Shown in pieces: positions 39,647 through 47,545 of a stretch of 64,000 nt of DNA. Under the pieces are notes generated by a model. It did not search any database and was not told where the DNA came from. It saw only the letters and a list, made by a program, of their open reading frames with translations. The DNA comes from Microbispora sp. NBC_01189 (GTDB taxonomy: Bacteria; Actinomycetota; Actinomycetes; Streptosporangiales; Streptosporangiaceae). The stretch lies in assembly GCF_036010665.1 (NCBI RefSeq), contig NZ_CP108581.1, forward strand, positions 2,895,501 to 2,959,500, written 5' to 3'. A program made the translations under genes and the position numbers. Position 1 is the stretch's first letter; each line of letters begins with the position of its first letter.

Positions 39647-40258
39647 TCAGGACGAGGTGACCCTGTCAGCGGGTTTCCTCCTCCGCCACATCAGCAGTGC
39701 CCCGGCCCCGGCGAGTGCCGGTCCTGCCAGAACCGCCCATGTCCAGCCGGGGAGGCCGCCCTGCTCGTCCGTCCCGCCCATCGCGCGAACGGGCGTACGC
39801 GACGGCACCGGAGCGCTGGACACCGGAGCGCTGGACACCGGAGCGCTGGTCACGGGAGCGCTGGTCACGGGAGCGCTCGGCGGCGGAGCCGACGAGGAAC
39901 GCACGGTGAAGGGGATCTCCCCTTCGATGGGGCTGCCATCGGCGGCGACGACGCGCCATACGACGGTGTAGCTTCCCGAGGGAAGCGGCTCGTCGACGTC
40001 CACGGTCACTTTGGCGCCCCGGACTCGGGGTGTGCCGGACGGAAGGCGCTGCCCGGCCGCGTCGTGCAGGAGCACGACGGGATAACGCACGTGGCTGTTG
40101 AACTCCAGCTCGATGAGATCGAGGCCGGAGACCACAGCGTCGCTGACGGGTGTGCTCGATCGCAGGGTGTCGTGCGCCAGCGCCGGTGCGGCGAACACTC
40201 CAAGGACGGCGCACAGCAGGCCGAGGAGCAGAAGCGCACTGGCTGTTTTCCCTTTCAC
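39647..40258 (-). CDS. copC: CopC-domain copper-resistance protein, copy 1
   Basis: 203 residues: signal peptide (GLLCAVLGVFAAPALA), mature N-terminal His (HDTLRSSTP), CopC beta-barrel (residues 30-125, LIELEFNSHVRYPVVLLHDAAG), a Ser/Ala/Pro linker of five pentapeptide repeats, one C-terminal membrane helix (WAVLAGPALAGAGALLMWRR) and a basic tail. Exported copper carrier tethered to the membrane. Where copy 2 has DGHPIQGEIPF this copy has DGSPIEGEIPF, so one possible copper-ligand histidine is lost. ATG overlaps the copy 2 stop by 4 bp. Confidence 0.85.
   Translation of the reverse strand: MKGKTASALLLLGLLCAVLGVFAAPALAHDTLRSSTPVSDAVVSGLDLIELEFNSHVRYPVVLLHDAAGQRLPSGTPRVRGAKVTVDVDEPLPSGSYTVVWRVVAADGSPIEGEIPFTVRSSSAPPPSAPVTSAPVTSAPVSSAPVSSAPVPSRTPVRAMGGTDEQGGLPGWTWAVLAGPALAGAGALLMWRRRKPADRVTSS
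39806..39880 (-). repeat. Five 15-bp tandem repeats in copC copy 1
   Basis: Units of CACCGGAGCGCTGGA/T at 39806, 39821 and 39836, then CACGGGAGCGCTGGT at 39851 and CACGGGAGCGCTCGG at 39866. They encode the pentapeptide SAPVT/S repeated in the linker between the CopC domain and the membrane helix. Confidence 0.85.
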
Positions 40259-40845
40259 TCGCCCTCACCGTTCTCGTGGCCCGATGGGCGGTCCTCCGAG
40301 TTGTCCGGGAGCGTCGCCGGTTTCCTGCCCCGCGCCACCAGGACGGCGGCTGCTCCGAGAACCGCGACCGCGGCCGCGACCGCCCAGATCCAGCCCGGTG
40401 TGCCGGTCTCCCGATCCGGGCGGTCCGCTCCGGCCACCGGGGTGGCGGCCGGCGCCGCACCTCCGGCCGATGCCGCCGACGATGATCCGACGACGAACGG
40501 AATCTCCCCCTGGATGGGGTGGCCGTCGGAGGAGACGACCCGCCAGGCGATGGTGTAGCCGCCCGGGGGAAGCGGGCCCGCGACCGCTTCCGTCACCATG
40601 GAGTCGCTGACGCGTGGAGTCCCCGACTCGAAGCGGCGTCCGGTCGCGTCATGAAGGACGACCACGGGAAAACTGACATGCGCGCTGAACTCCAGCTCGA
40701 TCTCGTCGAGGCCGGAGACGACGGAGTTCGCGGCGGGTGTGCTCTTCTTCAGGCTGTCGTGCGCGGACGCGGGGGCAGCGAGCACCACCGCGAAGAGGCA
40801 CGAGATGCCGAACAGGAAAACCACTCGGAGCGAGGGACGCTTCAC
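40255..40845 (-). CDS. copC: CopC-domain copper-resistance protein, copy 2
   Basis: 196 residues, tandem paralogue of copy 1: signal peptide (FLFGISCLFAVVLAAPASA), mature start HDSLKKSTP, CopC domain with IELEFSAHVSFPVVVLHDATG and SSDGHPIQGEIPFVV, an Ala/Gly/Pro linker, one C-terminal membrane helix and a charged tail. It keeps the N-terminal and loop histidines expected for Cu(II) binding. It precedes copy 1 in a coupled pair. Confidence 0.86.
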   Translation of the reverse strand: MKRPSLRVVFLFGISCLFAVVLAAPASAHDSLKKSTPAANSVVSGLDEIELEFSAHVSFPVVVLHDATGRRFESGTPRVSDSMVTEAVAGPLPPGGYTIAWRVVSSDGHPIQGEIPFVVGSSSAASAGGAAPAATPVAGADRPDRETGTPGWIWAVAAAVAVLGAAAVLVARGRKPATLPDNSEDRPSGHENGEGE

Positions 40846-41068
40846 GACAGGCTCCAGGCATGCGGGGAGGCCGTGGCCCGGCGTGTGACGGCGGACAGCG
40901 GTGTCATCGGGGATCTCCAGTCGTCGTGGGTGAACACCTGCGAGCGCGCGGGCCGTACGGACCGGCGTGAGCGGTCCGCGGTCGTCGAGGCGAGCCGCTT
41001 CCGCGGGCAGGCGTGACGTCCGAGCGGGCAGGCCGCGCGAAGGAACCCTCAGGAGGGCTCTGAGAGAA

Positions 41069-41638
41069 TCACAGGAACACGAGAACCGGCGGTCCGCGCC
41101 GGATGACGGCGTGTCGCAGGACGGCCTCGCGCCGAGGCTCGCGGCTCAGGTCGTACGACGCGAGCCGGGGGCGGGGGCGTAGGCGGGCGAAGACGTGGCA
41201 CACCGCGAGCACGGCCCGGAGCCAGTGGATCGCGCCCGTGCCGATCCCGCGCAGGATCGACCACAGCGCCGCCTCGCCCCGCGACAGCCACCACCCCGTG
41301 ACCACCGCCGCGGTGACATGCGCGGTGAGCATCCCGGCGCTCACTCCCAGCCGATGCGAGTGCGCCACGGCCGTCGTCTCCATCGACGGCGAGCGCGCCC
41401 CGAGGAGTTCGTGCAGGAAGACCTGGGCTGACAGGAGCAGGCCGATGACGACCCACGGTGACCTCTCCCGGCCCGCCATCGCCGTGGCGGTGGTCATGAC
41501 GACCGCTCCGCCCGCGAGAAGGGCGGGGAGAGTCGGGGCGCCCCCGCCGGCGAACCAGTGCGCGCCTACGGCGAGGAGTACGCAGACGACCGTGAAGGCG
41601 GCCGACCGCGCGAGTCGCAGGGGTAGGGCGGCGCGCAT
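41069..41638 (-). CDS. His-containing polytopic membrane protein A of the copper cluster
   Basis: 189 residues from ATG 41638, chosen by alignment with its divergent paralogue (MRAALPLRLARSAAF against MTATLPFRAVRAAAF). The frame upstream contains an ATA codon and no ribosome site. About four to five membrane segments; a loop with VAHSHRLG followed by the helix MLTAHVTAAVVTGWWLSRGEAALW. The three histidines around the third and fourth helices suggest metal contact. A basic, Arg-rich C-terminus lies in the cytoplasm. Family not recognised. Upstream of copC copy 2 by 223 bp on the same strand. Confidence 0.65.
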   Translation of the reverse strand: MRAALPLRLARSAAFTVVCVLLAVGAHWFAGGGAPTLPALLAGGAVVMTTATAMAGRERSPWVVIGLLLSAQVFLHELLGARSPSMETTAVAHSHRLGVSAGMLTAHVTAAVVTGWWLSRGEAALWSILRGIGTGAIHWLRAVLAVCHVFARLRPRPRLASYDLSREPRREAVLRHAVIRRGPPVLVFL

Positions 41639-41860
41639 GATGAAAACGACTATCGCACAAAGGCTGGTCAGCCCCAATACCGCCGCCATCGGTCGTTCAG
41701 GACGGGCTCGGGCCACCGCACGAAGGCGAGAACCGGTGCCGGGCGACAGGGTGCGCGCGCCGGTTCCTTCGTTCTCATCGACCGCTCGCGCTCCTTCACG
41801 AGGCATTCGACCCAATTATTACGATTTGCGCCGCATGTACTGGGGAGGAGGCGGTGTGCG

Positions 41861-41878
41861 ATGATTGCGGCGCCATGA
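41861..41878 (+). other. Possible five-codon leader (MIAAP) coupled to membrane protein B
   Basis: ATG at 41861 sits 9 bp after a perfect AGGAGG (41846-41851) and opens only five codons. Its TGA overlaps the ATG of membrane protein B (41875) as ATGA. The ribosome site is too far (23 bp) from ATG 41875 to serve it directly. An alternative is GTG 41854 in frame with protein B, but it lies 2 bp from AGGAGG. Confidence 0.35.
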
Positions 41879-42447
41879 CAGCCACCCTGCCCTTCCGTGC
41901 CGTACGGGCCGCCGCGTTCGCCGCGGTCTCGGTGGCGCTCGGCGTCGGGGCGCACGCTGTCGGCGGCGGGTCGGTCTCCGCGCTCGCCGTTCTCGTGGCC
42001 CTGTTCGTCGCCTTCCTGCCCGCGCACGCCCTCGCACGGCGGGAGCGGACGCTGGCCGTGATCCTCCCGGCCCTGGTGGCCTCGCAGGCGGCGCTCCACC
42101 TGCTGTTCTCGTTCGCGCACACCCTGGAACCGGTCACCGACGACTCCGCGATGAGCGGCGTCCATGTCCACTCCGGGCTGGTGCCCGGCCTGGGCATGCT
42201 GATCATGCACGGCTGGGCGGTCGCGCTGACCGCGGTCTGGCTGGCACGTGGCGAGGCCCTGCTCTGGGCCCTGCTGCGCCGGCTGGCGATCCGGCTGCGC
42301 ATCGCGTTCGCCGCCTTCCCGGCCCCCGCGTACGGCGCGGTCGTCGTCCCGGTGATCGAGCACCGGGTGGTCGCGCGGTCGGTCCTGCTCGGCCATTCGG
42401 TGGGCCGGCGCGGCCCTCCTGGCACCGTTCGCACTGTTTCCGCCTGA
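41875..42447 (+). CDS. His-containing polytopic membrane protein B, paralogue of A
   Basis: 190 residues. Same layout as protein A: MTATLPFRAVRAAAFAAVSVALGVGAH start, then a loop SGVHVHSGL followed by LIMHGWAVALTAVWLARGEALLWALLRRL. The shared pattern is a His-x-His loop, one His in the next helix, and the block W-L-x-R-G-E-A-x-L-W. Transcribed away from A, with pcuC downstream after 142 bp. No family name can be given. The position between CopC and PCu(A)C genes points to copper handling. Confidence 0.7.
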   Translation: MTATLPFRAVRAAAFAAVSVALGVGAHAVGGGSVSALAVLVALFVAFLPAHALARRERTLAVILPALVASQAALHLLFSFAHTLEPVTDDSAMSGVHVHSGLVPGLGMLIMHGWAVALTAVWLARGEALLWALLRRLAIRLRIAFAAFPAPAYGAVVVPVIEHRVVARSVLLGHSVGRRGPPGTVRTVSA

Positions 42448-42589
42448 CCGTCACCTGGTCGGCGGGCTCTTTCCGATGTGACCGGCACCCCCGGTAGTGG
42501 CGGGGTGCGTCCGGCGTGCGCTGGCGTACGCCGAATTCGTTCAGTGCAACGGTACCGACCACCGGCTCAGCCGGGGTGAAGGGATCTTC

Positions 42590-43141
42590 ATGTTCTCCCG
42601 TGTCATGCTCGTCGTTCTCAGCCTGGGCGCAGTGACGGCCACGGCGGCCTGCGGTTCCGAGGGGACGTCCTCCGTCTCATCGGCAGCGCCGTCGGCGGTG
42701 GCGGTGGCGGCCTCTCCGTCATCCTCCGCAGTCGCTCTCAGCATCACCGACCCGTGGGTCAAGACCACCAAGAAGGGGATGACCGCCGCCTTCGGCACGC
42801 TGGTCAACAACTCCGATTCGGACGTCACCGTCATCGCCGGCAGCACTCCCGCGGCACCCATGGTGGAGTTGCACGAGGTCGTGGAGTCCAAGGGGAAGAT
42901 GGTGATGCGGCCGAAGGAGGGCGGTTTCGTGGTCCCCGCCCACGGCTCCCACGTCCTGCAGCCCGGCGGCGACCACATCATGGTCATGGACGTGCCCTCC
43001 GAGATCAAACCGGGGTCCGAAGTGCCGTTCACGCTGGAGCTGCAGGGGGGCGGCACCTACACCTTCACGGCTCTGGGCAAGGACTTCGCCGGAGCCAAGG
43101 AGAACTACCAGCCGGGCGCCGACATGGACGGCATGGGATGA
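42590..43141 (+). CDS. PCu(A)C-type periplasmic copper chaperone, lipoprotein
   Basis: 183 residues from ATG 42590. Lipoprotein signal ends in ATAAC (lipid-bearing Cys at about residue 20). A Ser/Ala/Val linker is followed by the PCu(A)C domain (DPWVKTTKKGMTAAFGTLVN) with the Cu(I) ligand pattern MVELHEVVESKGKMVMRPKE, then HGSHVLQPGGDHIMVMD. C-terminal GADMDGMG may add methionine ligands. The last codons overlap the DyP start (ATGA). Related chaperones deliver copper to cytochrome oxidase or, in Streptomyces, work beside the DyP peroxidase DtpA. Confidence 0.9.
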   Translation: MFSRVMLVVLSLGAVTATAACGSEGTSSVSSAAPSAVAVAASPSSSAVALSITDPWVKTTKKGMTAAFGTLVNNSDSDVTVIAGSTPAAPMVELHEVVESKGKMVMRPKEGGFVVPAHGSHVLQPGGDHIMVMDVPSEIKPGSEVPFTLELQGGGTYTFTALGKDFAGAKENYQPGADMDGMG

Positions 43142-44400
43142 GTGAGCCGCGCATTGGGACGGAGGACGGCTCCCGCCCGCGCCTGAGCCGCAGGGCGCTG
43201 CTGTCCGGCGGCGCCGTGGTGGCCGCCGCCGCGACGAGTGGGGCCGTCGTGGCACGGGCGGGCGCCGACGCCGACGACACGCGTACGGCGGGCCGTACCA
43301 CCGGCTCGGACGTGAACTCGCCCCAGGCGACGGCGGTGGAGCCGTTCTACGGAGCCCACCAGGCCGGTGTCGCGACGGCTCCGCAGGCGCACGCCGCGTT
43401 CGTGGCGTTCGACCTGCGGGCGGGCTCGGACCGGGAGAGTGTGGCGCGGCTGATGCGCGTGCTCACCGACGATGCCCGGCGCATCACCCAGGGACAGCCC
43501 GCGCTCGCCGACACCGAGCCCCATCTGGCCGTGCTGCCCGCCCGGCTGACCGTCACCTTCGGCTTCGGACCGGGTCTGTTCGCGGCCACCAAGACGTCCG
43601 ATCAGCGGCCGGAGTCCGTCGCTCCCCTCCCCGCCTTCCGCATCGACCGGCTGAAGGAGCGGTGGACGGGCGGCGACCTGCTCGTCCAGATCTGCGCGGA
43701 CGACCCGCTCACCGTCACCCACGCGCTGCGGGTGCTCGTCAAGGACGCCCGGTCGTTCGCGAAGGTCCGCTGGACCCAGCGGGGCTTCCGGCGGGCCGCG
43801 CACTCCCAGCAGCCCCACACCACCCAGCGCAACGTGATGGGGCAGCTCGACGGGACCGTCAACCCCGTCGCCGGCACACCCGACTTCGACCGGGCGGTCT
43901 GGTTCGCCGGGGAGCAGGAGTGGCTGCGCGGCGGGACCACCCTGGTTCTGCGGCGCATCCGCGCGGAGATGGAGACCTGGGACGCCGCCGACACCGGCGC
44001 CAAGGAGTTCACGATCGGCCGGCGCCTGGCCGACGGCGCCCCGCTCACCGGCGCCCGCGAGCACGACGAACCGGACCTCGCGCGCCTCACCCCCGCCGGA
44101 CTGCCGGTCATCTCCGAGTTCGCCCACATCCGCCGGGCGCATGTCGCCGACCCGGGCGCGCACATCCTCCGTCGTGTCTACAACTACGACGAGGGCGTCT
44201 CCTCCGACGGCACCGCCGACACCGGGCTGCTGTTCGCCTCCTACCAGGCCGACGTCGCCCGGCAGTTCATCCCGATCCAGGAGCGGCTGGCCGAGGCGGA
44301 CCTGCTGAACGAGTGGACGACGCCGATCGGCTCCGCCGTCTTCGCCGTCCCTCCCGGCTGTGAGCCCAAGGGGTGGGTCGGCGAAACCCTGCTGGCCTGA
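43138..44400 (+). CDS. Tat-exported Dyp-type haem peroxidase
   Basis: 420 residues. Twin-arginine signal SRRALLSGGAVVAAAATSGAV. Mature domain with the GQLDGTVNP motif (GxxDG, distal Asp) and FAHIRRAHVADP bearing the proximal haem His region, then an Arg-containing segment NYDEGVSSDGTADTGLLFASYQ. Type A/EfeB-like. ATGA overlap with pcuC shows one transcript. In Streptomyces lividans a DyP (DtpA) and a PCu(A)C chaperone share an operon for copper trafficking; here no Sco or radical copper oxidase is adjacent. Confidence 0.92.
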   Translation: MSEPRIGTEDGSRPRLSRRALLSGGAVVAAAATSGAVVARAGADADDTRTAGRTTGSDVNSPQATAVEPFYGAHQAGVATAPQAHAAFVAFDLRAGSDRESVARLMRVLTDDARRITQGQPALADTEPHLAVLPARLTVTFGFGPGLFAATKTSDQRPESVAPLPAFRIDRLKERWTGGDLLVQICADDPLTVTHALRVLVKDARSFAKVRWTQRGFRRAAHSQQPHTTQRNVMGQLDGTVNPVAGTPDFDRAVWFAGEQEWLRGGTTLVLRRIRAEMETWDAADTGAKEFTIGRRLADGAPLTGAREHDEPDLARLTPAGLPVISEFAHIRRAHVADPGAHILRRVYNYDEGVSSDGTADTGLLFASYQADVARQFIPIQERLAEADLLNEWTTPIGSAVFAVPPGCEPKGWVGETLLA

Positions 44401-44442: not shown

Positions 44443-45483
44443 TCAGGCCGGGTAGGCGTGGGTCTCGGTGGCCTTGACCGAGGCCCAGACCTGCTCACCC
44501 GGGCTCAGATCGAGGTCGGCCAGGGCGGCGGGGGTGATGTCGGCGAAGGCGCTGACCGGGCCGTCGAGGTGGACGCGGACGTTGTCGCCGTGCCGTTCGA
44601 TGCCGTCGATCCTGGCCCGCCAGAGGTTGCGCGGGCTGCCGTCGGGGCGGGTGCGGTAGAGGGCCACGGCGGTGGGTGAGAAGGCCACGAAGGCGGGCCC
44701 GTCGAGCTGTTCGGAGGTGTGCAGCAGCAGTTCGCCGACCTTCGCCCCGGCGCCGTCACCGAGCCCGCGGTAGAGGTTGAGCCCGACGAGGCGGGCGACG
44801 TAGTCGGTGCGCGGGCGGCGGGCGACCTCGGCGGGGGCGCCCTGCTGGACGACGGCGCCGGCCTCGACGACGACCAGCCGGTCGGCCAGCACCATCGCGT
44901 CGAGCGGGTCGTGGGTGACGAGTACGGTGGCGCCGTCGAAGTCGGTCAGATGGCGGCGCAGCTGGGAGCGGATCTCCAGCCGGGTGTGCGCGTCCAGCGC
45001 GGCCAGCGGCTCGTCCAGCAGCATCAGCCTCGGTCGTACGGCCAGGGCCCGGGCGAGGGCGACGCGCTGCGCCTGCCCGCCGGACAGCTGACGAGGCTTG
45101 GCCGCCGCCCGGTCGGCCAGGCCGACGCGCTCCAGCAGGGCGGCGGCGGCGCGGCGCGCCTCGGCCTTGGCGACGCCCTGGCAGCGCGGCCCGAAGGCGA
45201 CGTTGTCGAGCGCGGACAGGTGCGGGAAGAGCAGGTAGTCCTGGAAGACCATGCCGATCGGGCGGCGCTCGGGGGCCAGGGTGTGCAGCGGCCGGCCGTC
45301 CAGGGTGATGTGCCCGCCGGACAGGGGGGTCAGCCCGGCCAGGGCGCGCAGCGCGGTGGTCTTGCCCGCGCCGTTCGGCCCGAGCAGCGCGACGACCTCG
45401 CCCGGTGCGACGTCGAGCGTGATGTCCAGGGTGAAAGCGGGCCGGTGGACGACCAGGGCCGATCGCAGACCGTCAACGCTCAC
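44443..45483 (-). CDS. modC: Molybdate ABC transporter ATP-binding protein with TOBE domain
   Basis: 346 residues from GTG 45483, overlapping the modB stop. Walker A GPNGAGKTTALRAL, Q-loop VFQDYLLFPHLS, signature LSGGQAQRVALARAL, Walker B LMLLDEPLAALDAHTR, H-loop VLVTHDPLDA. C-terminal TOBE/Mop-like domain (RNLWRARIDGIERHGDNVRVHLDG) that senses oxyanion. Energises import through ModB. Confidence 0.93.
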   Translation of the reverse strand: MSVDGLRSALVVHRPAFTLDITLDVAPGEVVALLGPNGAGKTTALRALAGLTPLSGGHITLDGRPLHTLAPERRPIGMVFQDYLLFPHLSALDNVAFGPRCQGVAKAEARRAAAALLERVGLADRAAAKPRQLSGGQAQRVALARALAVRPRLMLLDEPLAALDAHTRLEIRSQLRRHLTDFDGATVLVTHDPLDAMVLADRLVVVEAGAVVQQGAPAEVARRPRTDYVARLVGLNLYRGLGDGAGAKVGELLLHTSEQLDGPAFVAFSPTAVALYRTRPDGSPRNLWRARIDGIERHGDNVRVHLDGPVSAFADITPAALADLDLSPGEQVWASVKATETHAYPA

Positions 45484-46319
45484 GGGCTGTTCACCCACCG
45501 ATCGCGCAGGCAGGCCAGGATGACCACGGAGACGGTGAGCAGGACCAGGCTGAGCACGACGGCCGCCTCCGGCTCGGTCTCCAGCGCCAGGTAGACCGCG
45601 AGCGGCATCGTCCGGGTGGTGCCGGGGAAGTTGCCCGCGAAGGTGATGGTGGCGCCGAACTCCCCGAGCGCCCGCGCCCAGCACAGCACGGCTCCGGCCA
45701 CGACGCCCGGCATGACGAGCGGCAGGGTGACCCGCCGGAAGACGGTCCAGCGGGAGGCGCCCAGTGTGGCGGCGGCCTCCTCGAACCGCCGGTCCGCGCC
45801 GCGCAGCGCCCCCTCCACGCTGATCACCAGGAACGGCATGGCCACGAACGCCTCGGCGACGACCACTCCGGCGGTCGTGAAGGGCAGCGTGATCCCGAAG
45901 GCGGACTCCAGCCACTGTCCGGCCAGCCCGCGCCGGCCCAGCACCAGCAGCAGCGCCACGCCGCCCACGACCGGCGGCAGCACCAGCGGCACGGTCACCA
46001 GAGCCCGCGCCACCCGTCGGCCCGGGAACTCCACCCGGGCCAGCAGCCAGGCCAGCGGCACCCCCAGCAGCACGCAGACGGCCGTGGCGGCGGTGGCGCA
46101 CAGCAGCGACAGGCGTAACGCCTCCAGCACCTGTGGCTCGGCGAGCCGCTGGAGCAGCGTGGACCACGGCGCCCGGACCAGCAGCCCGGCCAGCGGCAGC
46201 ACGAGGAAGGCCAGCCCCGCCACAGCCGGGAGCACCAGCATCCACGGCGGACGGCCCGCGACTCCACGTCCGGCGGCCGCCCCGGCGCCGGACGTGTCCG
46301 GGTCGTTCGAGGAGCTCAT
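45480..46319 (-). CDS. modB: Molybdate ABC transporter permease
   Basis: 279 residues with about six membrane segments. The ABC-coupling EAA loop is EEAAATLGASRWTVFRRVTLPLVMPGVVAG, and ARALGEFGATITFAGNFPGTTRTMPLAVY is the molybdate/sulfate permease signature. Extended hydrophilic N-terminus of about 25 residues. Lies between modA (5 bp upstream) and modC. Confidence 0.94.
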   Translation of the reverse strand: MSSSNDPDTSGAGAAAGRGVAGRPPWMLVLPAVAGLAFLVLPLAGLLVRAPWSTLLQRLAEPQVLEALRLSLLCATAATAVCVLLGVPLAWLLARVEFPGRRVARALVTVPLVLPPVVGGVALLLVLGRRGLAGQWLESAFGITLPFTTAGVVVAEAFVAMPFLVISVEGALRGADRRFEEAAATLGASRWTVFRRVTLPLVMPGVVAGAVLCWARALGEFGATITFAGNFPGTTRTMPLAVYLALETEPEAAVVLSLVLLTVSVVILACLRDRWVNSP

Positions 46320-46324
46320 CGGGG

Positions 46325-47119
46325 TCAGGGCGACTGGAAGCCGGCCCTGGTCAGCACGTCCTGGCCCTGCTGGGACAGCACGAGATCGGCGAACTGCTTG
46401 GCGAGGTCACCGGCGGGAGCCTTCGACAGGGTCGCGATCGGGTAGTCGTTGATCGCTTTGTCCGCCTCGGGGAAGTCGATCCCCTGCACCTTACCCGCCG
46501 AGGCGATCACGTCGGTCGCGTAGACGAGGGCGGCGTCCACCTCGCCAAGCTCGACCTTGGTCAGCGTGGCCTTGACGTCCTGCTCCAGGGTGACCGGGGT
46601 GACCTTCAGCCCGGCCGCCTCCAGCGCCTTGACGGCCGCCGCCCCGCACGGCACCTGCTCGGCGCACAGCGCCACCTTCACCTTGGGATCGGTCAGGTCC
46701 TTCAGCTCATCCACCTTGGCTGGGTTGTCCTTCGGTACGGCGATCTCCAGCTTGTTCCGCACGAAGGTGGTCGGCCCGCTCGCCGGCGACGCGTCGGTGA
46801 CGGTCTTCATCGTGGCCGGACTGGCCGCGGCGAACACGTCGGCCGGAGCCCCCTGGACGATCTGCTGGGCCAGCGTGGCGCTGGAACCGAAGTTGAACTT
46901 CACCGTCGTGCCCGGGTGGGCGGTCTCGAAGGTCCTGCCGAGTTCGGTGAAGGTCTCGGTCAGCGACGCGGCCGCGAAGACGTTCACCTCCTTCGCCGCG
47001 GCGGCCGCCGATGTCGAAGCCGAGGACGTGGCCGGTTCGCCCGAGCCGCAACCGGACAGCCCGGCGATCACCAGCGCGACGGGCGCGGCGACCGCCCATC
47101 GCGAAAGGCGCCTGAACAC
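46325..47119 (-). CDS. modA: Molybdate-binding lipoprotein
   Basis: 264 residues from GTG 47119 (GGAG 8 bp upstream; a TTG one codon earlier is possible). Lipoprotein signal ending LSGC. Periplasmic-binding fold: EVNVFAAASLTETFTELGRTFE (oxyanion-binding Ser in AASLT), FGSSATLAQQIVQGAPADVFAAAS, then VYATDVIAS. The ligands Ser and Tyr are typical of ModA for molybdate/tungstate. Confidence 0.93.
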   Translation of the reverse strand: MFRRLSRWAVAAPVALVIAGLSGCGSGEPATSSASTSAAAAAKEVNVFAAASLTETFTELGRTFETAHPGTTVKFNFGSSATLAQQIVQGAPADVFAAASPATMKTVTDASPASGPTTFVRNKLEIAVPKDNPAKVDELKDLTDPKVKVALCAEQVPCGAAAVKALEAAGLKVTPVTLEQDVKATLTKVELGEVDAALVYATDVIASAGKVQGIDFPEADKAINDYPIATLSKAPAGDLAKQFADLVLSQQGQDVLTRAGFQSP

Positions 47120-47131
47120 CAAGGGAGCTCC

Positions 47132-47545
47132 TTATGGGGTTGTGACCACGCGCTCGTGGCCGGGGATCTCGACGACGACGTTGGTGGACTTGATCACGGC
47201 GACCGCCACCACTCCGGCTTCCAGGCCCAGCTCGTCTGCGGCCTGCCGGCTCATCAGCGACACCACCCGGAACGGCCCGGCGGCGATCTCCACCTGGGCC
47301 ATCACCGAGTCCCTGACGACCTCGGTGACGATCCCGCGGAAACGGTTACGCGCCGAGGACCGCCTGCCGTCGCCGGTCGTCTCGACCTGCGATCGGGCGA
47401 AGGCGGCCAGGTCGGCCCCGCTGATCTGCCGGTGGCCGTGCTCGTCCCGTACGGCGGCCAGCCGGCCCGCGTCCACCCACCGGCGGACGGTGTCGGAGCT
47501 GACCCCGAGCAATGCGGCGGCCTCACTGATCCGGAACGTCGTCAC
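47132..47545 (-). CDS. Molybdate-responsive regulator: excisionase/MerR-like HTH fused to Mop domain
   Basis: 137 residues. Helix-turn-helix (FRISEAAALLGVSSDTVRRWVDAGRL, wing DEHGHRQISGADLAAF) joined to one Mop/TOBE domain (NRFRGIVTEVVRDSVMAQVEIAAGPFRVVSLMSRQAADELGLEAG, then VIKSTNVVVEIPG). Mop domains bind molybdate. First gene of the mod operon, 12 bp before modA, so it very likely represses or controls its own operon in response to molybdate. Gene order regulator-modA-modB-modC. Confidence 0.88.
   Translation of the reverse strand: MTTFRISEAAALLGVSSDTVRRWVDAGRLAAVRDEHGHRQISGADLAAFARSQVETTGDGRRSSARNRFRGIVTEVVRDSVMAQVEIAAGPFRVVSLMSRQAADELGLEAGVVAVAVIKSTNVVVEIPGHERVVTTP

Follow-up and report, generated by a model that had tools for sequence, protein, structure and literature searches.

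Results

Two divergent copper operons and the genes that head them

We analysed a window of 64,000 nucleotides from the 7.37 Mb chromosome of the soil bacterium Microbispora sp. NBC_01189 (contig NZ_CP108581.1, positions 2,895,501 to 2,959,500; coordinates below are counted within this window), in which six genes are split between a minus-strand run, MemA-CopC-CopC, and a plus-strand run, MemB-PCu(A)C-DyP, that diverge from each other. Each run is headed by a small membrane protein, and we propose that these two, MemA and MemB, are very probably paralogous, copper-sensing translation-arrest leader proteins (nascent-chain regulators), one per operon, and not copper carriers. The features of the locus are as follows.

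39647-40258, minus strand: CopC-2, a secreted CopC-domain protein with a C-terminal hydrophobic anchor (Pfam CopC, 4.4e-18)
40255-40845, minus strand: CopC-1, a secreted CopC-domain protein (Pfam CopC, 5.3e-21), overlapping CopC-2 by 4 bases
40842-40907, minus strand: open reading frame (ORF) of 21 codons, the mini-ORF, with a Shine-Dalgarno-like GACTGGAG and a stop that overlaps the GTG start of CopC-1 (from sequence)
41069-41638, minus strand: MemA, 189 residues, putative RGPP arrest-leader paralogue, first gene of the CopC operon (alignment, tree set)
41087-41098, minus strand: RGPP codons of MemA, CGC GGA CCG CCG, 5 codons 5' of the stop (from sequence)
41639-41874, no strand: shared divergent intergenic (promoter) region (from sequence)
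41856-41865, in the shared intergenic region: element GTGCGATGAT, 19 bases before the MemB start
41875-42447, plus strand: MemB, 190 residues, putative RGPP arrest-leader paralogue with four predicted transmembrane (TM) helices, first gene of the PCu(A)C-DyP operon (alignment, structure model)
42409-42420, plus strand: RGPP codons of MemB, CGC GGC CCT CCT, 8 codons 5' of the stop (from sequence)
42448-42589, plus strand: leader of 142 bases that separates MemB from PCu(A)C and is predicted to form hairpins (from four sequences that show little covariation)
42590-43141, plus strand: PCu(A)C copper chaperone lipoprotein (Pfam PCuAC, 1.1e-34), the sole PCu(A)C match in the genome
43138-44400, plus strand: DyP-type peroxidase, DtpA/EfeB-like, with a twin-arginine-like N-terminus (Pfam Dyp_perox N, 6.7e-34, and C, 4e-35)

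A preliminary description of this locus had placed two divergent paralogous genes at its centre, one arm leading to two CopC proteins and the other to PCu(A)C and DyP. The gene positions bear this out, an alignment of MemA and MemB over 128 positions has 50 identities (39%; E 2e-4 for this one pair), and the Pfam matches confirm the content of both arms. Other details of that description stood in part. Export of DyP by the twin-arginine (Tat) route is consistent with an SRRALL-type N-terminus, yet the Pfam TAT_signal match (E 0.29) falls below its cut-off. The His-x-His loop to which it drew attention is present in both MemA and MemB, and a His within it (column 97) reaches a weighted conservation of about 94%, but the loop is not a conserved feature of the family, as H27, Q71, H75, M108, H112 and the C-terminal RGPP are. 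The arrangement was also said to lack CopD, Sco and a radical copper oxidase. Sco has no match in the whole genome, the same search being positive in 6 of 14 named genomes as a control, and a galactose-oxidase-like E-set domain had none either, in a search without a positive control of its own; in a comparison search 2 of 3 other actinobacterial genomes were positive for that domain. CopD is indeed outside the cluster, but three matches lie elsewhere in the genome.

Although it gave no match to Sco or to a GlxA-type oxidase, this genome has PCu(A)C together with a DtpA-like DyP. Among five sampled congeners a Sco match was absent in four, and in the fifth (locus L206) Sco lies right behind a copy of the MemA/MemB family. 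The PCu(A)C and DyP genes overlap by ATGA. Assignment of DyP as the iron-uptake protein EfeB was rejected, its TIGR01412 score being 387.9 bits, under the cut-off of 428; no EfeU- or EfeO-like ORF was noticed beside it, as judged from translations only.

A family that lies upstream of changing partners

The genome holds four copies of the family, MemA and MemB aligning with the other two. The third, which diverges from a CopD-CtaG fusion, has a YcnI (DUF1775) gene directly 3' of it, and the fourth lies upstream of a PepSY_TM gene. MemA shares 90% identity with a copy in M. triticiradicis and 89% with one in M. amethystogenes. Neither MemA nor MemB has a Pfam match at E up to 1 (CopD included) or an NCBIfam model near its cut-off; DUF2946 was found neither in the two proteins in that search nor among ten relatives, and no CXXC or CXXXC motif was found in either sequence. 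In a plasmid collection one record matched MemB, with no annotated feature under the match, and none matched the copy at L148. A profile search detected the family in 143 of 150 sampled genomes of the order and in 15 of 296 genomes of a phylum sample (own genome included in both).

To survey the neighbourhoods, 160 distinct copies longer than 300 bases (shorter matches dropped, identical proteins counted once) were classed by the nearest recognised downstream gene on the same strand. They were drawn from 80 named contigs, from stretches of the order- and phylum-sample genomes and from the own genome, and class representatives were checked against Pfam and NCBIfam. The order-sample regions were hand-picked from the match list with their neighbours unseen, while the named-contig set was found with MemA-type sequences and therefore leans to YcnI. 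A partner, always within 575 bases, was found for 27 of 27 phylum-sample copies, 88 of 88 named-contig copies, all four own copies and 32 of 40 order-sample copies. In the phylum sample, whose neighbours were unseen at fetch, the 27 places outside the own genome all had their partner within 379 bases 3': YcnI in 14, a SigC-like extracytoplasmic-function (ECF) sigma factor in 8, CopC in 2, a DsbA-like protein in 2 and PCu(A)C in 1. The order sample gave PCu(A)C 13, PepSY 9, YcnI 4, CopC 3, ECF sigma 3, another family copy 3 and none 5; the named contigs gave YcnI 75, PCu(A)C 7 and CopC 6; and the own genome has one each of CopC, PCu(A)C, YcnI and PepSY. Most homologues were thus found in copper contexts, contrary to the outcome, homologues largely outside such contexts, that the preliminary description had named as its refutation. 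The L206 copy heads Sco-PCu(A)C-DyP and is not a blind case, because it entered via the Sco search. One copy from genus g41, which is probably Streptomyces, stands at the head of YcnI-Sco-PCu(A)C-CopC/CopD-DyP.

The copies directly 5' of SigC-like ECF sigma genes are L149, L150, L152, L156, L157, L160, L187 and L189 in the phylum sample and L173, L177 and L194 in the order sample. Downstream of L161 and L188 lie a thioredoxin/DsbA-like gene and a gene for a PhoD phosphatase (Pfam on L188 only), and one genome (G062, L192-L197) has 13 family matches, several of them tandem or back to back.

The mirror arrangement with CopC and PCu(A)C-DyP partners occurs in the window and at L066, L067 and L219, all of the same genus. 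At five other Microbispora loci (L070, L074, L077, L088, L103) the MemB-PCuAC-DyP arm converges on a MemA-type-YcnI arm, and divergent family-gene pairs with other partners were seen at L146, L169, L177 and L192.

A C-terminal arrest motif

In 156 of the 157 copies with a stop found, R[GA]PP stands 0-17 residues before the stop (149 RGPP and 7 RAPP), and the single exception carries HGPP; this count omits L123 and L132, which have neither motif nor stop in the scanned stretch, and one motif copy without a stop. RGPP is 5 residues ahead of the stop in MemA and 8 in MemB. The motif did not occur in the last 30 residues of 225 partner-domain matches (208 ORFs). RGPP is reported to be the strongest arresting tetrapeptide and the most excluded across many phyla, and the first RAPP-type arrest peptides to be found were encoded 5' of genes for protein localization (Fujiwara et al. 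2025, PMC12992588). In the same study arrest by seven S. lividans proteins, tested in vitro and with a B. subtilis reporter, depended on the motif, and YcnI, PCu(A)C, PepSY and DsbA genes were enriched downstream of RAPP/RGPP upstream ORFs (uORFs).

Four of these seven proteins have four TM helices and lie upstream of metal-related, thioredoxin-domain or ECF sigma genes, and their arrest depends on the Arg (PMC12992588). SLIV_18480 has a metal-related downstream gene, and its predicted copper site consists of one Met and three His; SLIV_27375 precedes a thioredoxin-domain gene and carries Cys88 and Cys109, 21 apart, and SLIV_33595 and SLIV_33605 precede ECF sigma genes. With the present family they share the four TM helices, the C-terminal RAPP/RGPP, the upstream position, the partner classes, the predicted three-His and one-Met site and, in the thioredoxin class, the Cys pair; the matching classes here are YcnI, thioredoxin/DsbA-like with a Cys pair 21 apart, and SigC-like ECF sigma. 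Judged by these matching descriptions, the four-TM SLIV proteins would belong to the same family as MemA and MemB; the passages of PMC12992588 on these proteins do not state that its arrest classes form one homologous family. What sets MemA and MemB apart from the SLIV cases is their position back to back, at the head of a CopC and a PCu(A)C-DyP operon.

The codons of the motif are unusual as well. Both Pro codons in MemB are CCT, which makes up 77 of the 1633 Pro codons in family gene bodies, and CCT or CCA occupies the third motif position in 91 of 143 cases, as against 125 of those 1633 codons.

Conserved residues, topology and linker

Over 156 alignment rows, H27 is conserved in 156, H75 in 154, H112 in 155 and M108 in 151; the rows were picked for the motif, whose four columns therefore owe their conservation to that choice. 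The DsbA-class copies (L161, L188) have lost H75 and M108 and kept H27 and H112, and they carry the Cys pair 21 apart; joint loss of H75 and M108 was seen only in this class. A structure model of MemB (mean predicted local distance difference test score 75, predicted template-modelling score 0.52) has helices at 5-29, 36-54, 60-84, 102-125 and 127-146, the first four being the TM helices; those of MemA were placed by alignment only. Arg residues at 8, 11, 56 and 58 and after TM4 suggest an N-in/C-in topology for MemB, which would put H27, H75, M108, H112 and a variable His/Met segment on the outward side. The H75-M108 stretch, between TM3 and TM4, ranges from 16 to 115 residues and is Met/His-rich in several genus g41 copies.

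Behind the helices the tail end (residues 171-182) carries 2.78 bits of conservation and the linker before it (147-170) only 1.27, while the distance from E127 to the motif Arg has a median of 54 residues (5-95% range 49-68, extremes 40-72). Such a linker, variable in sequence and fairly constant in length, would look like what is expected of a spacer that spans the ribosome tunnel.

Arrest leaders of the SecM and MifM type monitor membrane insertion or export capacity, and MemA and MemB could in principle do the same, with the exported copper proteins as their clients. Most partners are exported or membrane proteins, and the first discovery of RAPP-type arrest peptides upstream of protein-localization genes (PMC12992588) points the same way. 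However, a capacity monitor gives no account of a near-invariant H27/H75/M108/H112 set of which H75 and M108 are jointly lost only where the partner is DsbA-like, and the SigC-like sigma partner is not exported, SigC itself having been linked to copper starvation (PMC7924339). We regard export monitoring as quite improbable.

Subfamilies follow the partner

A quick maximum-likelihood tree of 125 of 159 copies (YcnI rows thinned, with a long-branch warning) was compared with the partner labels. Across the four classes with 105 labelled rows the label changes 11 times on the tree, the least possible being 3, while shuffled labels gave a mean of 41.3 changes and none of 200 shuffles was as low as 11. 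PCu(A)C copies fall within one supported set of 27 in 21 of 22 cases, and PepSY copies within another in 10 of 11. Each paralogue class thus tends to accompany one class of extracytoplasmic copper gene, as the preliminary description had supposed.

MemA falls in a supported set of 46 YcnI and 6 CopC copies (of 12 CopC copies) and is therefore placed in the YcnI-type branch; it appears to belong there as a member in which CopC was substituted for YcnI. The mini-ORF may be the scar of that replacement, as a remnant of the replaced YcnI start, or it may be a coupling ORF. Its strong Shine-Dalgarno-like sequence is of the YcnI type, and similar counterparts exist at L067 (with a GTG start) and L219, while in L066 (M. 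triticiradicis) it is apparently fused to a truncated CopC-1 without a signal peptide.

The preliminary description read MemA and MemB as partners of CopC and PCu(A)C in copper transfer, which would make them membrane proteins that bind or transport copper. A copper-transfer role of this kind draws on the copper context of most homologues, on the near-invariant His/Met set in predicted TM helices, on the Met/His-rich TM3-TM4 segments and on subfamilies that follow the partner, all of which are also found here. It nevertheless leaves unexplained the near-absolute C-terminal RGPP and the published arrest activity, the placement immediately upstream of the partner, partners as unrelated as sigma factors and DsbA-like proteins, and the linker that is conserved in length and variable in sequence. 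These features and the arrest assays point instead to leaders acting in cis, and we consider copper transfer improbable. The symmetry of the locus looks like two separately headed operons with a common promoter region; the mirror with these partners was found only in four loci of one genus.

Arrest codons and the downstream Shine-Dalgarno

At many YcnI-class junctions the Pro-Pro codons and those that follow are the reverse complement of the Shine-Dalgarno of YcnI. Taking the register in which the first Pro codon is CCT and the Shine-Dalgarno contains GGAG, we find 62 loci (58 YcnI, 3 CopC, 1 PepSY), which fall into 26 distinct combinations with compensatory changes (CTT/AAG, CGT/ACG, CTG/CAG, CTC/GAG, GGTT/AACC and CTTT/AAAG), and all four tested positions are paired, wobble allowed, in 39 of the 62. 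Over the distinct combinations the paired fraction is 0.769, compared with 0.543 +- 0.036 after permutation, with 0 of 5000 permutations as high. Under synonymous recoding, 35 of 91 YcnI junctions were significant at p<=0.05 and 16 of 91 at p<=0.01, against 8 and 3 of 52 junctions of other classes. When the arrest codons were set against the whole intergenic region, YcnI reached p<=0.05 in 29 of 93 cases and the other classes together in 1 of 55; a sliding-window test went in the same direction (mean z -2.0 for YcnI, -0.2 to -1.3 for the other classes).

We further computed stall relief, the predicted drop in the opening cost of the Shine-Dalgarno (in kcal/mol) when the stall footprint is blocked; junctions longer than 400, or longer than 300 or shorter than 20, bases were excluded from the energy tests. 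Relief in the YcnI class was 2.13 (control blocks 0.46), and 38 of 90 junctions exceeded all controls. The other values, with controls in brackets, were 3.11 (0.99) for 7 PepSY, 1.11 (0.12) for 16 PCu(A)C, 0.68 (-0.09) for 11 CopC, 0.58 (0.12) for 9 ECF, 1.42 (-0.12) for 3 family-copy and 4.25 (2.48) for 2 Dsb junctions, and at the single Sco junction blocking the footprint raised the opening cost by 3.02. The own genome's YcnI copy has a relief of 9.4, yet one neighbouring control block gives 8.2, and its p is 0.02 against the Shine-Dalgarno and 0.76 against the whole intergenic region.

A general Shine-Dalgarno lock for all classes was dropped, because only the YcnI class stands out in the whole-intergenic test. 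A new finding here, which applies chiefly to YcnI junctions, is that arrest codons match the Shine-Dalgarno downstream as its complement and change in concert with it; this suggests a route by which stalling switches the next gene. The Discussion of PMC12992588 raises whether and how arrest regulates downstream genes, and the terms Shine-Dalgarno, stem-loop and secondary structure do not appear in its main text; among the papers listed by literature searches none dealt with the junctions of the MemA/MemB family.

The window leaders are longer, 142 bases between MemB and PCu(A)C and 223 bases between MemA and CopC-1. Consensus folds over four loci gave plausible helices with next to no covariation, both partners having changed in 3 of 64 and 0 of 52 pairs, and the Shine-Dalgarno-like GAAGGG of PCu(A)C lies inside a small predicted start-codon hairpin (four sequences, little covariation). 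These long leaders may work via another fold or, as CruR (described below) does, via Rho.

The shared promoter region and flanking genes

An element GTGNGANNAT occurs 15-70 bases 5' of the family start in 67 of 93 YcnI, 9 of 22 PCu(A)C and 2 of 11 ECF copies, and in none of 33 other copies (CopC 12, PepSY 10, no partner 5, family copy 3, Dsb 2, Sco 1), with 1 match in 20,670 bases further upstream as a control. It often lies about 19-22 bases before the start, as at 41856-41865 in the window and in YcnI-class loci, and it may be a leaderless -10 element. As a common promoter motif it was set aside, for it fails to unite all classes. Several YcnI-class loci have TAGCGACAAA farther upstream.

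Beyond DyP, on the minus strand at 44443-47545, lies a molybdate-type ATP-binding cassette (ABC) transport operon with ModA and ModB over their cut-offs and an ABC ATPase; a gene with an excisionase-type helix-turn-helix and a Mop domain belongs to this operon.

Discussion

Taken as arrest leaders, MemA and MemB would work as follows. The ribosome would make four TM helices that insert into the membrane as a bundle, its outer half carrying H27, H75, M108 and H112, and would then stall at RGPP, a few codons from the stop and about 50-55 residues past the end of TM4. Copper at the outward-facing site would alter the folding or pulling of the nascent chain and decide whether the arrest holds, and the stalled ribosome would change the structure of the leader mRNA and so set downstream expression. 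MemA would in this way control CopC-1 and CopC-2, and MemB would control PCu(A)C and DyP. In YcnI operons a ribosome parked on the arrest codons should free the Shine-Dalgarno, because these codons can pair with it.

Copper-sensing arrest leaders are a known kind of switch, which here is probably duplicated back to back. One precedent is CruR of Bordetella pertussis (DUF2946; Roy et al. 2022, PMC9426467), a copper-responsive uORF with a C-terminal RAPP, whose homologues head copper operons, and the partner list of these homologues, YcnI, CopC, PCuAC, Sco and PepSY_TM, is nearly the same. CruR, however, is a DUF2946 protein that senses copper through CXXC and acts by Rho termination, while MemA and MemB have neither a DUF2946 match nor a CXXC. 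CutF of Rhodobacter capsulatus (PMC9973294) likewise is a nascent copper sensor whose stalling-like C-terminus frees the next Shine-Dalgarno, that of cutO, but it is DUF2946-like, exported by a signal peptide, coupled to an intergenic stem-loop and copper-on. With SecM-secA the idea is shared that a C-terminal arrest frees a downstream Shine-Dalgarno from a stem-loop (PMC10987492); SecM monitors Sec export. In gene content, the S. lividans sco-ecuC-SLI_4212-dtpA operon (PMC4736821) also combines a PCu(A)C-type lipoprotein with DyP, although SLI_4212 lies between the two genes that are directly adjacent in the window. The g41 operon described above has the content of this S. lividans operon with two extra genes in front, whereas the window operon has neither Sco nor CopCD, and its genome no Sco or GlxA-type match, unlike the S. 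lividans pathway.

Several points weigh against the arrest-leader proposal or narrow its reach. Arrest by MemA and MemB themselves is a prediction, the assays covering S. lividans proteins whose membership in the family is judged by matching descriptions, and Met/His-rich loops with a TM His/Met set would also fit a plain copper-binding protein. In the survey, 5 of 160 copies have no recognised partner and 3 of 160 precede another family copy; three of the classes, sigma, DsbA and Sco, were introduced on inspection of copies initially scored as partnerless, and before these additions a copper partner was found in 17 of the 27 phylum-sample copies. At the junctions, 23 of the 62 loci have one shared combination, relatedness being incompletely removed by the permutation control, 8 loci break the last pair with ACTC or ACTG (CTC/CTG) opposite an unchanged AAG, and L153 pairs at one of four positions. 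Stall-site CCT is enriched also in classes without good Shine-Dalgarno pairing, and the codon choice may therefore serve stalling itself. Nor is the effect significant in the window arms: recoding against the Shine-Dalgarno gave p 0.74 for MemA and the CopC-1 start and p 0.32 for MemB, whose letters there are the same as at L067; against the whole leader p was 0.49 for MemA (mini-ORF start) and 0.68 for MemB; and stall relief was -0.51 at CopC-1, or 1.49 kcal/mol at the mini-ORF start, not above all controls, and 0.52 kcal/mol at PCu(A)C, with no significant signal.

The sign of the switch may be considered within the arrest-leader proposal. CopC is often a copper-tolerance protein, which would suit an arrest stabilised by copper that turns the carriers on. 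CutF offers a precedent for this opposite sign, its stalling being prolonged by copper so that the cutO Shine-Dalgarno is freed (PMC9973294), but CruR is switched on at low copper (PMC9426467). The SigC-like and PCu(A)C partners suggest copper supply: for three ECF partners tested against NCBIfam the best scores were to SigC and its sister model, below cut-offs, and M. tuberculosis SigC is tied to copper starvation (PMC7924339). Furthermore, with one PCu(A)C match and no Sco match in the genome, PCu(A)C could be the supplier of copper to cytochrome oxidase. For these reasons we lean modestly towards a switch in which low copper leads to arrest and arrest turns the carriers on; the opposite sign, a variant of the same proposal whose odds overlap with it, keeps an appreciable though lesser probability.

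Our findings turn a membrane family with copper neighbours into predicted copper sensors that act via stalled ribosomes. The use of arrest codons as an anti-Shine-Dalgarno would give a concrete answer to the question of downstream control raised in the Discussion of PMC12992588, and the copies 5' of SigC-like genes suggest translational, copper-dependent control of a copper-starvation sigma factor. With a little less than even confidence, one may speculate further that a four-TM nascent-chain sensor family has radiated, giving YcnI, CopC, PCu(A)C-DyP, Sco and PepSY operons and a SigC-like sigma factor each their own copper-reading leader, with a Cys pair replacing part of the His/Met site in the thioredoxin branch and with YcnI arrest codons doubling as an anti-Shine-Dalgarno. 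According to this speculation, the Microbispora locus would be a bidirectional, two-sensor copper switch.

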